A DNA stretch of 64,000 bases from Poseidonibacter parvus. GTDB taxonomy: Bacteria; Campylobacterota; Campylobacteria; Campylobacterales; Arcobacteraceae. Under the pieces are notes generated by a model that was not told the DNA's origin, did no database searches, and worked only from the letters and a program-made list of their open reading frames with translations. Shown here one piece after another: positions 13,556 to 63,084 of the stretch. The stretch spans positions 2,170,001 to 2,234,000 of the forward strand of contig NZ_CP019070.1 in the NCBI RefSeq assembly GCF_001956695.1, written 5' to 3'. Both the position numbers and the translations under genes were made by a program. Positions within the stretch are counted from its first letter, which is position 1; each line of letters opens with the position of its first letter.

Positions 13556-13918
13556 TTATTTTTCTTTTTCAAAATCTATAGAAACTGAGTTTACACAGTG
13601 TCTTGTATTTTTTGAAGTTAACCCTTCACCTTCAAAAACATGACCTAAATGACCACCACAATTATTACATACTATTTCTATTCTTCTTCCATCTGCATCA
13701 GGTACTCTTTTTACTGCACCTTCTAAATTATCATCAAAACTTGGCCAACCACAACCTGATGAAAATTTACTATCTGATTTATACAATGCAGTATTACATT
13801 TTCTACAAGTAAAAATACCTTTTTCATAAAAATCGTTAAATTTTCCAGAAAATGGTCTTTCTGTACCTTTTTTTTCAATAACTCTTATTTCTTCATCACT
13901 TAATTTATTAAATTCCAT
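13556..13918 (-). CDS. msrB: Peptide methionine-R-sulfoxide reductase
   Basis: 120 residues. MsrB repairs methionine-R-sulfoxide in proteins. Zinc-binding CxxC pairs are seen at CRKCNTALY and CNNCGGHLGHVF. The catalytic cysteine is in RHCVNSVSIDF near the C-terminus, and SGCGWPSF is a family block. There is no signal peptide, so a cytoplasmic enzyme is expected. It starts 11 nt after an FAA hydrolase gene and may be cotranscribed with it. Confidence 0.96.
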   Translation of the reverse strand: MEFNKLSDEEIRVIEKKGTERPFSGKFNDFYEKGIFTCRKCNTALYKSDSKFSSGCGWPSFDDNLEGAVKRVPDADGRRIEIVCNNCGGHLGHVFEGEGLTSKNTRHCVNSVSIDFEKEK

Positions 13919-54056: not shown

Positions 54057-55214
54057 TTATGAAAGTCTGCTTATATACTCATTATATCCAAAATTGTTTA
54101 CAATTTGATAACATGAATCTGATACTTTAATTACAATTGATGGTAACTTTATTCCATTAAATGTGGTAGTTTTTACCATTGTGTAATGTATCATGTCTTC
54201 TAAGATTATTTTATCACCAATTTTTAAGGGCTTATCAAAAGAGTAATCTCCGATTATATCTCCAGCTAAACAAGTATTTCCACCAAGTCTATAAGTAAAC
54301 TCTTTTTCATTTGCAAGTGCACTATTTCTAATATCTGCACGATATGGCATTGCAAGAGTATCTGGCATATGTGCTTCTGCTGATGTATCTAAAATTGCTA
54401 AATTCATTCCATTTTTAACTACATCCAAAACAGTTGCAACTAAATAACCAGTTTGCCATCCAACAGCTTCACCTGGTTCTAGATATACTTCAAGGTGTGG
54501 ATATCTTAATTTAAACTCTTTTAATAATTTAATTAAACCAACAACATCATAATCAGCTCTAGTAATATGATGTCCTCCACCAAAATTTACCCATTTTAAT
54601 TGTGAGAAATATTGTGAAAAGTTTTTTTCAAATGCTTCAAGTACACCTTCAAGAGCATCAACATTTTGCTCACAAAGTGCGTGAAAATGAAGACCTTCAA
54701 CACCTTCAAGATTATTTTCTTCAAAGTTTGCTTTTGTAATACCTAATCTTGAATTAACAGCACAGGGATTGTATAAATCTACCTCAACAGATGAATACTC
54801 AGGATTTATACGTAAACCTATTGAAGTTTTATTTATTGCTTTTTGTCTGTATCTATTTAATTGGTTAAAAGAGTTAAAAACTAAGTGGTTTGAAAGATCA
54901 ATTATTTCTTCAATTTCTTCATCTTTAAAAGCAGGAGAGTAAGTATGAACTTCTCCACCAAACTCATTTTTAGCAAGAAGTGCTTCATGTAATCCTGAAG
55001 CACAACAGCCTTTTAAATATTTTTTACACAACTCAAAAGTTGAGTATAAAGAAAAACCTTTTAAAGCTAAAAGAATATTTACATCAGCTTCATCTTGCAC
55101 TTTTTTTAATAGTTTTAAATTCTTTTCAAGTAAGTCTTGTTCACATACAAAACTAGGACTTGGAAGTTTTTCAAAACTATCTACTGTTTGATTAATCTTC
55201 TTCAAAAGGCTCAA
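54057..55214 (-). CDS. nspC: Carboxy(nor)spermidine decarboxylase
   Basis: 385 residues. PLP enzyme of the alanine-racemase fold group [18 protein letters not shown] at the N-terminus and [15 protein letters not shown] carry the PLP Lys. [43 protein letters not shown] and LEPGEAVGW are NspC blocks. It decarboxylates carboxyspermidine (or carboxynorspermidine) to the polyamine. The likely start is TTG at 55214, inside the rubredoxin gene (23-nt overlap), so the two are probably translationally coupled. Confidence 0.92.
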
Positions 55215-55359
55215 AGTCCTCTTTTGTTACACCACAATCAGGACATTCCCAATCTTCTGGAATGTCTTCAAATGCAGTTCCTGCTTCTATTCCTGAATCT
55301 GGATCTCCAAGAGCTGGGTCATAAATATAATCACATACTGTACAAATATACTTTTTCAT
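55192..55359 (-). CDS. Rubredoxin
   Basis: 55 residues: [20 protein letters not shown] then the second site [13 protein letters not shown]. The four cysteines in two CxxC pairs bind one iron. Rubredoxins carry electrons to oxygen- or peroxide-detoxifying proteins. It lies between the dehydrogenase and decarboxylase genes for carboxyspermidine, 33 nt after the first and overlapping the second. AAGGAA precedes the ATG. Confidence 0.95.
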
Positions 55360-55392
55360 TTTAATTCCTTTTTATTTTTTTATATTTTTTTA

Positions 55393-56680: not shown

Positions 56681-57070
56681 GGGGATGATTTGGCTTCGAT
56701 TAGAGCATTGAAGTCTAGTTGCATGTCGGCCTGAACACGCCGTTATACGGTTCATTTTTTTTAAACGCAAATAATACTAATTATTCTCCAGCTTACGCAG
56801 CAGCGTAAGTTTTAATTTAGACTCCCCTTAAGTGGGTCGAGACTAGGAGGCTCATTCTACTGATGCTATATAGGTAGATTTAAATGGGCTCACCCTAATA
56901 GCTTATCTTTAAAGAGTTGATTTAACTTTAAAGAGACATTCCTAATCTTATCTTTCATAAGCCTTGCAGGTTGAGCTTATGATAAGTGAAATTGATCGAC
57001 CTCTTCTAAACATGTAGACGCTATGCGGATATGTTTTAAGACTCCGGTTCAATCCCGGACATCTCCACCA
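56681..57070 (+). ncRNA. ssrA: Transfer-messenger RNA
   Basis: 390 nt. The 5' end GGGGATGATTTGGCTTCGAT and the 3' end GGTTCAATCCCGGACATCTC followed by CACCA form the tRNA-like part, with CCA encoded. The tag reading frame runs from GCA at 56767 to TAA at 56808 and encodes ANNTNYSPAYAAA. tmRNA rescues stalled ribosomes and tags the product for proteolysis; clpP and tig are nearby. Its 3' end is a common integration site for islands. Confidence 0.97.
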
Positions 57071-57077
57071 AAAAATT

Positions 57078-57117
57078 ATTTTATCTATACAAGTCCTATT
57101 TTATCTATACAAGTCCT
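57078..57117. repeat. 20-bp tandem repeat after ssrA
   Basis: ATTTTATCTATACAAGTCCT is present twice without interruption (57078-57097 and 57098-57117) and is followed by ATTTTAT again. It partly forms the left arm of the ssrA terminator. Confidence 0.85.
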
Positions 57118-57133
57118 ATTTTATAGGTCTTTT
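57112..57133 (+). terminator. Probable ssrA terminator
   Basis: AGTCCTAT-TTT-ATAGGTCT with one T/T mismatch, followed by TTT. It includes the end of the second 20-bp repeat. Confidence 0.55.
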
Positions 57134-57336
57134 AAAGATTATTTCCATACCTAATAAAAACTTTAGTCACCTATTAGACACCCTAAAAATAAATTTCAAA
57201 ATTTACACATATAATTCAAAAATTTAAATTATACTTTTTAGTTTTTACAATTTTTATATTAATTTTTTATTACAATAGGTAAAATGTAATCGTTTTTAAG
57301 AGTAAATATTAAGATTAATGTAAATTTAATATTTTG

Positions 57337-57342
57337 TATAAT
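57337..57342 (+). promoter_or_regulatory. -10 box of candidate small RNA
   Basis: TATAAT preceded by TTTTG, about seven bases before the first hairpin region of the candidate RNA. There is no convincing -35. Confidence 0.5.
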
Positions 57343-57348
57343 ATAATA

Positions 57349-57441
57349 AAAACAATAAATGCGAAAGCAAGATGATTATTCATCACTTGGGCTGGTCTTT
57401 CTGATAGACTAAAAGGGTTCTTCTTTGAAGAGCCCTTTTTT
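57349..57441 (+). ncRNA. Candidate structured small RNA
   Basis: About 93 nt with no ORF but dense secondary structure: TGC-GAAA-GCA (57360-57369, GNRA loop), GATGA-TTAT-TCATC (57371-57384), GTCT-TTCTGAT-AGAC (57395-57409), and a GGGTTCTTC-TTT-GAAGAGCCC terminator with a T run. A TATAAT lies just upstream. It does not match tRNA, SRP, 6S or tracrRNA features that I know. It could be a regulatory RNA of the island or an antisense RNA to the convergent gene at 57440. Confidence 0.5.
57415..57441 (+). terminator. Terminator of the candidate small RNA
   Basis: Nine-bp stem with one G-T pair (GGGTTCTTC/GAAGAGCCC), three-base loop, followed by seven T residues. On the other strand an AAAAGGG-side A run makes it usable for the convergent gene too. 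Confidence 0.85.
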
Positions 57442-58273
57442 ATTGCTCTTTTTTCGGAAACTTAAATTCATATATTCTTTTATTTAAATTAAATTTCTCA
57501 TTGAACTCATCTTGTGTTATATGATGATGTGAATTTATATAATACTCATTTTCAATATTCCCAAGGTGTTTTTTTAATGAAACATAATGATAATTAGAAT
57601 TTTTTCTTCTTACAAAAATCATATCTGTTTTTAAGTTAGATAATTTTAGAGATTCTTTTGTAAAAACATACAATGGTTTGTATAAGGTTTTTTGAATCCA
57701 TGAAAAAGCTTGAATTTTATTAATATCACATCCATCTAATTCATAATCATGTGTTAAGTTTGATTCATAAAATATGTTCTTAATAAATTCATCTTTTGTT
57801 GTTTTAGAAAATATTTTTTTTCCATCTTCAACATGATAATCTTTATATCCAATTAAATGAGGAAAATTCTTTAGATTAACATTTATTTTAATAGGCATTT
57901 CATTTTTAAATATTTCTTCAAATGTTGTTTTTAAAGACTTCTGTATTCTATTTAAATTATTATTATATAAACTAAAATCAAGCGTCATATTTTTATATGT
58001 AAAAGTTTCTAAAAAATAAAAAAGTAAAGCTTTGTAATTTAAATATTCTAATTCAAGCTTTTCAGGAAATTTTGTATCTTCAATATATTGTTTTATATAT
58101 TTATCTTTTTTTATTTTCAGTTCATTGATAATTTCTCTTTGAGTTTCATGTTTTTTAAGTTCATTCTTAAAGTTATCAATTATATCTTCTAAATAATCTT
58201 CTTTAATTAATGACTCAATTAATTCATTAATTTTAATCTCTTTATTCTCTTTGTATTCTGTTTCTAAATTCAT
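57440..58273 (-). CDS. Unknown protein, possible PBECR4-type nuclease domain
   Basis: 277 residues, no signal or membrane segment. The first 100 residues are Glu/Lys-rich coiled coil. From about 120 on, the order of blocks NLKNFPHLIGYK, TTKDEFIKNIFYE, IQAFSWIQKTLYKPLYVFTK, LKTDMIFVRRKNSNYHYVSL and NEYYINSHHHIT resembles the PBECR4 (phage Barnase-EndoU-ColicinE5/D-RelE-like) nucleases often found with mobile elements. This match is from memory and is tentative. It is the last gene of a coupling protein, J-protein, unknown protein unit. Confidence 0.6.
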   Translation of the reverse strand: MNLETEYKENKEIKINELIESLIKEDYLEDIIDNFKNELKKHETQREIINELKIKKDKYIKQYIEDTKFPEKLELEYLNYKALLFYFLETFTYKNMTLDFSLYNNNLNRIQKSLKTTFEEIFKNEMPIKINVNLKNFPHLIGYKDYHVEDGKKIFSKTTKDEFIKNIFYESNLTHDYELDGCDINKIQAFSWIQKTLYKPLYVFTKESLKLSNLKTDMIFVRRKNSNYHYVSLKKHLGNIENEYYINSHHHITQDEFNEKFNLNKRIYEFKFPKKEQ

Positions 58274-58315
58274 AGTGTAATTATATATAAAATTAATACA
58301 AAGCTAGTTAAATTT

Positions 58316-60812: not shown

Positions 60813-61301
60813 TCATCTAAAGTGTGAGCTTTCACGTGAGTAAGATTTATCTTGTTTTTGTTTATCCCGTCTTATTTCTCTTTCTTTGATATTTTCAAAC
60901 TCTTTTGTTTTAGAAGTATATAAAGTATCAAGCCCTAGAGTTTTTAATCTATATTTCTTCTTTTCATAAATTACCCCTAAAGTTTGACCTCTTTTATATA
61001 CTTCAAAACCATTATTCTTTAAATAGTTATCTAGAAAAGTTTGTGAAGTAGCCTTATTTAGTATTCTTTCTAGATTCTCTTTGATCTTGTCTTTTAATGT
61101 TTTTGTATTTCTTTTTGTTTTAATCTCTTGCTCGTTTTGTTTATCTTTTGAAAGGTCTTTTGTTTTTTCGTAGTGTCTAGTTTTTCCAAGCTCTTTATAT
61201 TTCAAGTTTTTATAGCTTTCTATCTCTTTTTGAATATATGCAAACTCTTTTTTTGAGAGTCTAATTCTTTTTTGTCCTTCAATTTCATTTGCACTTATCA
61301 T
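60813..61301 (-). pseudogene. Probable C-terminal fragment of a relaxase
   Basis: 162 residues, basic and coiled, starting at the IS boundary: its first Met codon lies three bases from the IS end with no ribosome-binding site. The C-terminal FLDNYLKNNGFEVYKRGQTL, then GVIYEKKKYRLKTLGLD, resembles the tail of MOB-type relaxases (RGxxxGV-xxxKYRLKxLGL). The catalytic N-terminal part with Tyr and His triad is absent. Location next to the coupling-protein gene supports a relaxase. I take it as truncated by the IS event. Confidence 0.55.
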
Positions 61302-61304
61302 TAG

Positions 61305-61328
61305 TGGAGTGGTAACATGAATTCATAC
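61305..61328 (+). repeat. Left terminal inverted repeat of IS3 element
   Basis: Begins TGGAGTGGTAAC and ends AATTCATAC; matches the right end except at position 6 and at three bases in the middle. Confidence 0.85.
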
Positions 61329-61376
61329 TCGGAATTTAACAATTCTGAGATAAAATAAAATGAATAAAGGTTACAA

Positions 61377-61673
61377 ATGAGAAAGAGTAAATACAGTAAA
61401 GAGTTCAAAGATTCCACAGTACAATTAATTTTAAATGATGGTGAAAGCGTTGTAAAAGTAGCAAAAGATTTAGGTTTAAATACAAAGACATTATATCATT
61501 GGGTTACTATATATAAAAAAGCTCATAATATACCAATACGAGATATAAATTCTTCTTCTAAAGAAAGTGATAATGAAGAACTAAAACGACTGAGACGTGA
61601 GAATAAAATACTAAAACAAGAAAGAGACATTTTAAAAAAGGCAGCAGCATACTTCGCAAAAGAAACTCTATAA
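61377..61673 (+). CDS. IS3-family OrfA
   Basis: 98 residues. Helix-turn-helix_Tnp_1 protein: RKSKYSKEFKDSTVQLILND then VVKVAKDLGLNTKTLYHWV. The C-terminal leucine zipper is rich in Glu/Leu/Lys (LKRLRRENKILKQERDILKK). The slippery AAAAAAG lies near codon 87, where a -1 shift would fuse it to OrfB as the active transposase. Confidence 0.93.
   Translation: MRKSKYSKEFKDSTVQLILNDGESVVKVAKDLGLNTKTLYHWVTIYKKAHNIPIRDINSSSKESDNEELKRLRRENKILKQERDILKKAAAYFAKETL
61634..61640 (+). other. Programmed -1 frameshift site of the IS
   Basis: AAAAAAG in the phase A-AAA-AAG of orfA. Slipping back one base continues AAA GGC AGC and enters the frame that leads through YAWIFENKKSFSIKLMCKV into orfB. Confidence 0.8.
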
Positions 61674-61720
61674 GGTATGCTTGGATATTTGAGAATAAAA
61701 AGAGTTTTAGCATTAAGCTT

Positions 61721-62551
61721 ATGTGTAAAGTTGTTAAAGTAGATTTATCTTCTTATTACCATTGGATAAAAACAGGGTCTGTTGTAAAAAAAGTAGATAA
61801 AAAACTTAATGAATTAATTGAGATTATTTTTCTTCAAGGTAGGAATAACTACGGTACTCGTAGGATTAGAGATAAACTAAAAGAATTATATGGATTAATT
61901 ATTTCAAGAAGACGTATTTCAAATATCATGAAAGATTTAAATCTAAAAGTTAAAATGAAAAGAAGATATAAAAATACAACTGATTCTAATCATAATCTGC
62001 CAATTGCACCTAATATCTTAAATAGAGACTTTTATGCTTCAAGTCCAGATCAAAAATATGTAGGGGATATTACTTACATTCCAACAGGTGAAGGCTGGTT
62101 ATATTTAGCAACGGTAATTGACCTATACTCAAGAAAAGTAGTTGGCTGGAGCATGGATGATACGATGAAAGTATCATTGGTAAATGATGCATTAAGTATG
62201 GCAATACTTCATAGGAATCCACCTTCTGGACTCATTTGGCACACAGATAGAGGCTCACAATATGCTTCTTATAGCCATAAAGATTTATTATTAAAAAACA
62301 ATATTACACAAAGTATGAGTCGAAAAGGCAATTGCTGGGACAATTCTGTTGCTGAGAGTTTTTTTAAATCATTGAAACAAGAATTAGTTTATAACACATA
62401 TTTTTATACAAAGAAACAAGCTAAAAAAGAGATATTTGAATATATTGAATTTTATTATAATAGAGTTAGAAGTCATAGTTATGTAGGAAATTTATCTCCT
62501 GTTAAATTTGAAGAAAAACAAAATGCGTTACAAAGTGAAATGGTGGCTTAG
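61721..62551 (+). CDS. IS3-family OrfB (DDE transposase)
   Basis: 276 residues from the first ATG; the conserved N-terminus extends further upstream in frame to the orfA frameshift. HTH_21 region is NNYGTRRIRDKLKELYGL. The rve integrase core has the DDE residues in VGDITYIP, WHTDRGSQY and NSVAESFFKSLK. It ends NLSPVKFEEK. No internal stop, so the element may still be active. Confidence 0.95.
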   Translation: MCKVVKVDLSSYYHWIKTGSVVKKVDKKLNELIEIIFLQGRNNYGTRRIRDKLKELYGLIISRRRISNIMKDLNLKVKMKRRYKNTTDSNHNLPIAPNILNRDFYASSPDQKYVGDITYIPTGEGWLYLATVIDLYSRKVVGWSMDDTMKVSLVNDALSMAILHRNPPSGLIWHTDRGSQYASYSHKDLLLKNNITQSMSRKGNCWDNSVAESFFKSLKQELVYNTYFYTKKQAKKEIFEYIEFYYNRVRSHSYVGNLSPVKFEEKQNALQSEMVA

Positions 62552-62567: not shown

Positions 62568-62591
62568 GTATGAATTTTAGTTACCTCTCCA
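62568..62591 (-). repeat. Right terminal inverted repeat of IS3 element
   Basis: On the minus strand begins TGGAGAGGTAAC and ends AATTCATAC, mirroring the left end. Confidence 0.85.
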
Positions 62592-63084
62592 CTTCAATTA
62601 AATTAAAAATACTCTTATCAAGAGAAAAAAAGTGTTGTGATATATTTTTATTTTCTTCACATACAAATTCAGATTCAAAAAAGCTTGGAGCTCTCCATTC
62701 TAATTCAATGCCTGAACTGTTAGCTTTGTCTTCTACTTCAATCTGCCCTTTTGGTTTTTTACCTTTATCTTGTCCCCATTCTTGATTAGTATAAATTAAA
62801 AGTTTTGTGATACTAGGATAATCTCTTTTTGCCTTATCTATTGTATCAAGTAAATCTTTTTTATGTTCAGAAATTCGTACTTCATAAAATTTTGCTTGCC
62901 AACCTATTACTTCATTATCAACTTCAATAGGATTTGTTTCTACTGCAGACTGATTTTTATAACGAAAGATTCCATAAGGTTGTTTATATTCTTTACAAAA
63001 TAATAAGTAAGAAAACCATTCAAAGTTTTCTGTGCAATTGTCACTAAATTTAGCTTGAAATATTTTCCAGTTTGGTTTTATCAT
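62581..63084 (-). pseudogene. N-terminal part of a PD-(D/E)XK-like, probably defence-related protein, truncated by the IS
   Basis: 167 codons; the last few residues (VER and stop) are encoded by the IS end. MIKPNWKIFQAKFSDNCTEN and GIFRYKNQSAVETNPIEVDN followed by EVIGWQAKFYEV read like a restriction-endonuclease-type fold: conserved acidic residues then QAK. TKLLIYTNQEWGQDKGKK and IELEWRAPSFFESEFV continue it. Such domains open large STAND/P-loop defence proteins. The rest of the protein is missing. Family placement is inferred, but truncation by the IS is seen directly. Confidence 0.6.

Follow-up and report, generated by a model that had tools for sequence, protein, structure and literature searches.

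A candidate lineage-specific small RNA with an intrinsic terminator, convergent with an orphan gene at the edge of a tmRNA-gene island in Poseidonibacter parvus

The locus and its island

The sequence analyzed here (the window) is a stretch of 64,000 nt from the 2.87 Mb genome of Poseidonibacter parvus (GCF_001956695.1, NZ_CP019070.1, positions 2,170,001-2,234,000 of the forward strand). The region of interest contains the following features, in window coordinates.

56681-57070, plus strand: tmRNA gene ssrA, into whose 3' end the island probably integrated
57111-57133, plus strand: probable tmRNA terminator hairpin, from sister-locus comparison
57162-57184, plus strand: 23-bp direct repeat, probable integrase arm site, with an exact second copy at genome positions 2240857-2240879
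57337-57342, plus strand: TATAAT, a possible -10 box from the sequence, not significant
57350-57444, plus strand: candidate transcript of ~94 nt, based on the terminator, the fold and a jump in G+C; the 5' end is placed ~7 nt 3' of the TATAAT
57359-57412, plus strand: 17-codon ORF (MRKQDDYSSLGLVFLID), no Shine-Dalgarno sequence seen
57411-57439, plus strand: intrinsic terminator of 13 pairs, with a T-run of 6 counted from the last C
57440-58273, minus strand: orphan gene of 277 aa, convergent with the candidate RNA, no convincing relative

The position at an island edge, put forward in a preliminary description of this DNA, was borne out. The second copy of the 23-bp repeat adjoins a tyrosine integrase gene, and beyond it the tmRNA 3' end recurs in degenerate form, as judged by eye (L063, ~13690-13830). 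Right of the island, after this degenerate end, the apparent start of another integrase gene was seen by eye, which suggests that one island has followed another at this site. A 20-bp unit is repeated 2.4 times in the interval separating the tmRNA gene from its hairpin (57077-57124); this repeat was not seen in three sister loci.

The island encodes the orphan, a membrane protein with a DnaJ domain and a VirD4-type coupling protein. It also carries a HamA/HamB pair and, beside a transposase with an integrase core domain that we take to be of the IS3 type, the C-terminal part of a relaxase. The relaxase is reduced to its C-terminal 162 codons, adjoining the transposase (60813-62551), and is whole in a sister island (G081; L087:3006-3830); with this remnant, the island is probably unable to start its own transfer. 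From their profile matches, the HamB-type helicase (PADLOC HamB1, 9.5e-73) and HamA (Pfam HamA, 1.6e-10) are predicted to be a Hachiman defence pair, carried on the same island as the RNA (L063:5983-9274, the 3' part lying in the window from 63282). A 167-aa ORF (62581-63084) matches residues 1-167 alone of the 1570-aa Avs4 profile (2.2e-84), and would be either a defence-gene fragment or a stand-alone N-terminal domain.

The convergent gene had been described as nuclease-like. We found it to be an orphan without recognizable toxin or nuclease features. The protein has no match in Pfam, PADLOC or NCBIfam, chance-level matches in PHROGs (best E 0.07) and no solved relative. Among 104 family genomes its own was the single match (1/104). 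Among 398 genomes of the order, seven matched at E <= 0.01 including its own, and the six others, at 7e-4 or weaker, are taken as chance, given the number of genomes. No relative was confirmed in viral contigs or genome contigs, and tblastn in 12 loci tested gave no match. A single-sequence fold prediction was unusable (mean pLDDT 41). The orphan's ATG is preceded, six bases ahead, by a TATAAT (58273-58290), as in leaderless mRNAs (compare the excerpt of PMC3847290).

An intergenic terminator without a gene end

The terminator is the sole statistically real element among the described features. By itself it folds with a z of -5.20, with 0/200 shuffles as good, and it accounts for the strong fold of the whole 99 nt (z -5.17, equaled by 0/200 shuffles). 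Both strands of the window were scanned, which gave five terminator-like sites from four hairpins. One lies inside ssrA and three mark the end of a gene on the same strand as the site; the fifth, at 57411, is alone in the 64 kb in being intergenic and lacking an own-strand gene end. The candidate RNA thus has a Rho-independent terminator on its own strand, as an intrinsically terminated sRNA should. The T-run extends into the stop codon (57440-57442) of the gene on the minus strand, confirming that the candidate would end on the stop codon of the facing gene.

This arrangement, in which the orphan's stop codon adjoins the hairpin, also allows for there being no RNA gene at all. The hairpin would then just end transcription of the orphan, along with stray plus-strand transcription, and the promoter-like site would be AT-rich noise. 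Such an explanation fits the frequency of TATAAT, the weak upstream fold and the lack of conservation in BLAST and covariance model searches, all described below. It fits less well with the asymmetry of the T-run (T6 on the plus strand, T4 on the minus strand), since the minus-strand reading of the hairpin, which would serve the orphan, fails the T-tail rule that the plus-strand reading passes. Nor does it account for the G+C jump across 57359-57440, and in our search a hairpin was found at just two of the eight convergent gene pairs in the window. We consider it unlikely, though far from negligible.

The terminator might otherwise belong to the tmRNA gene, which lies on the same strand 341 nt away on the 5' side, with no intervening gene. 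Here the 57411 hairpin would act as a back-up stop for transcription that reads through from the tmRNA gene, and there would be no separate promoter. The hairpin at 57111-57133 is short, in keeping with this proposal; it is largely kept in three sister loci, and one of its five consensus pairs is changed on both sides in one sequence. Since ssrA has this hairpin of its own, it does not need the terminator at 57411. In addition, the interval between ssrA and the DnaJ gene in two sister islands (G081 and G122) leaves no space for a second such terminator. We rate a back-up role as very unlikely.

Upstream fold, base composition and a short reading frame

The preliminary description gave three short hairpins and a strong terminator. 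All are present in the predicted fold, which consists of a 3-bp stem with a GAAA loop, a 5-bp stem (57371-57384), a 6-bp stem and then the 13-pair terminator stem. The terminator withstood comparison with shuffled sequences; the upstream hairpins are weak, with a z of -1.62 for 57350-57410 (61 nt, terminator excluded; 11/200 shuffles as good). Other cuts gave z -2.07 (57359-57412; 7/200 shuffles) and z -2.63 (57350-57390; 3/200). With values in this range, the upstream hairpins are at best suggestive. The GAAA-loop stem is in the optimum when the terminator is included, and is replaced by a different pairing when it is left out.

Base composition changes sharply at ~57359, and the raised G+C spans 57359-57440. 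The G+C of 57359-57410 is 40.4%, versus 21.2% for noncoding DNA as defined by a gene map built from ORFs of at least 60 codons; the noncoding places in the window that reach 40.4% number four. A G+C-rich noncoding stretch at 55215-55392 lies upstream of an ORF starting at 55214, possibly owing to a misplaced start codon.

The candidate had been said to contain no ORF, which is incorrect: the ATG at 57359 opens 17 codons, ending with a TAA at 57410-57412. This ORF runs into the terminator, the stem of which begins within the TAA, much as a normal gene stops on its terminator. Together with the sharp composition change, this would suit what is left of the 3' end of a protein gene, or else a very short mRNA, with the G+C jump marking DNA of other origin. 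As ORFs of at least 17 codons arose in 204/2000 shuffles (~10%), the ORF is no evidence of coding, and the missing Shine-Dalgarno sequence also speaks against translation. A back-translated C-terminal pattern hit four viral contigs, none of which resembled the same protein end in frame. We regard a gene remnant as improbable.

The promoter-like site

The TATAAT noted in the preliminary description is indeed present. It is uninformative, because the window holds 160 copies (81 on the plus strand, 79 on the minus strand), three of them on the plus strand between the tmRNA gene and the terminator. No two-hexamer sigma-70 match was called on the plus strand at the candidate site, and the scanned region contained 31 such matches versus 30.9 expected. 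The extended -10 of Campylobacter is TGxTATAAT in the excerpt of Dugar et al. 2013 (PMC3656092), and the candidate is inexact in this respect, because its TG directly adjoins the TATAAT. The excerpt of PMC3847290 gives the -10 motif as gnTAnaAT. The promoter, which we infer, is at the level of the AT-rich background.

Homologue searches

Over the window, the tmRNA gene alone reached an Rfam gathering threshold, in agreement with the earlier statement that the candidate does not resemble tmRNA, SRP, 6S or tracrRNA. At loose thresholds the best family for the candidate was GibS (25.8 bits versus 115 needed). BLAST against 60 genomes gave matches in 10, including its own, and no homologue: the 10 matches in the nine other genomes all fall in bases 1-43 of the 109-base query, where it is AT-rich at its 5' end, and the sequences shown for them have no corresponding hairpin series or terminator. 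The own genome has one full-length copy and 28 short partial matches (E 0.0014 to 0.77).

Covariance models were built from the one sequence, with the terminator (R1) or without it (R2). No homologue emerged from R1 in 398 genomes, where nine, including its own, were reached at E <= 0.1; six of nine other loci were realigned, and the four alignments shown match through their terminators. Within the genus, R1 reached six of 10 genomes, including its own, at E <= 1, and the three loci realigned all matched through terminators. R2 reached five of the 398 genomes, including its own (best other E 0.017 per genome). Because single-sequence models detect just fairly close relatives and the collections hold one genome per species, relatives may exist in other strains. 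Phage and plasmid searches found no RNA homologue. An 18-base pattern had eight matches among genome contigs, in scattered phyla and with little similarity beyond the pattern, versus ~7 that we estimate by chance, and another pattern had no matches in viral contigs.

Sister islands

The coupling protein is present in seven of 104 family genomes, including its own. In G081 and G122, the tmRNA end is followed by the arm site and then directly by the DnaJ gene, with no RNA and no orphan; at the far end of the G122 island, a similar repeat precedes a tmRNA 3' end recognizable by eye. G114, G113 and G107 carry a different small gene of 108-113 codons after the DnaJ gene. In G011, the arm site behind the tmRNA gene is followed by another gene and, at a greater distance, by only a fragment of the DnaJ gene, and in G093 the contig stops before the equivalent region. 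R1 found nothing at the equivalent place in the seven loci tested, its best score (18.7 bits) lying elsewhere. Thus, the conservation in homologous islands that had been set beforehand as a condition for the RNA was not seen, the comparable islands being without both the RNA and the orphan gene. Their joint absence from two sister islands makes the pair look like one cargo insertion of ~1.1 kb. It does not show that the RNA and the orphan work together.

Interpretation

Our preferred reading, held tentatively and somewhat short of an even chance, is that the candidate is a lineage-specific, intrinsically terminated transcript of ~94 nt (57350-57443, plus strand), which would have arrived together with the convergent orphan as ~1.1 kb of cargo adjoining the site at which a mobilizable island integrated into the tmRNA gene, and which, if functional, would most likely be an ordinary base-pairing sRNA. 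The terminator with its strand bias, the setting in an island and the absence from two sister islands are established; the promoter, the transcript itself and any function are putative. The terminator, its standing as a lone intergenic site, the separate hairpin of ssrA and the G+C jump together make a real plus-strand transcript slightly more likely than not; a functional sRNA is somewhat less likely.

Such an sRNA might pair in trans, or with the 3' end of the orphan mRNA that shares its terminator. Among the start regions of 11 genes in or near the island, that of HamA paired best with the RNA; it was rejected as a target, as 15/200 shuffles were as good. The geometry would also permit a tail-to-tail effect on the orphan mRNA. 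More speculatively, the RNA and the orphan might together make up a new type of cargo module, the convergent sRNA acting through the 3' end of the orphan mRNA to control an effector in defence or addiction; we rate this as highly unlikely.

If transcribed, the candidate would add one lineage-specific sRNA to the cargo of tmRNA-gene islands in Campylobacterota-like bacteria. As the island also bears Hachiman, an RNA traveling with an orphan would be a modest lead on accessory regulation. The candidate alone decides no open question.

Comparison with known systems

The regulatory or antitoxin role first suggested for the candidate found no support in the featureless orphan, the lack of a repeat array of the type III kind or the pairing with the 11 gene starts, none of which stood out. 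Type III toxin-antitoxin systems (ToxIN) have a short RNA beside one gene on a mobile element. The candidate is alike in adjoining one gene on such an element, but it is convergent with that gene, whereas the type III RNA carries a tandem repeat array and precedes its toxin gene on the same strand; neither property was found here. In the type I pair txpA/RatA, the two genes are convergent and their 3' ends overlap.

The candidate shares this convergent orientation and the overlapping 3' ends, and its absence together with the orphan from two sister islands would also suit an RNA antitoxin paired with the orphan gene. A type I system, however, joins a small hydrophobic toxin to an antisense RNA, whereas the neighbour here is a 277-aa protein without a family match, the overlap is the shared terminator only unless there is read-through, and the RNA contains no repeats. 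An antitoxin is thus extremely unlikely.

Another close parallel is with the strain-specific sRNAs of Campylobacterota. They are usual in C. jejuni, four strains of which yielded 24 candidates (Dugar et al. 2013, PMC3656092, in the excerpt consulted). The candidate differs from these in being known from sequence alone and in its inexact extended -10, and resembles them, as far as that excerpt describes them, in being a compact gene in AT-rich DNA that is confined to a single lineage.
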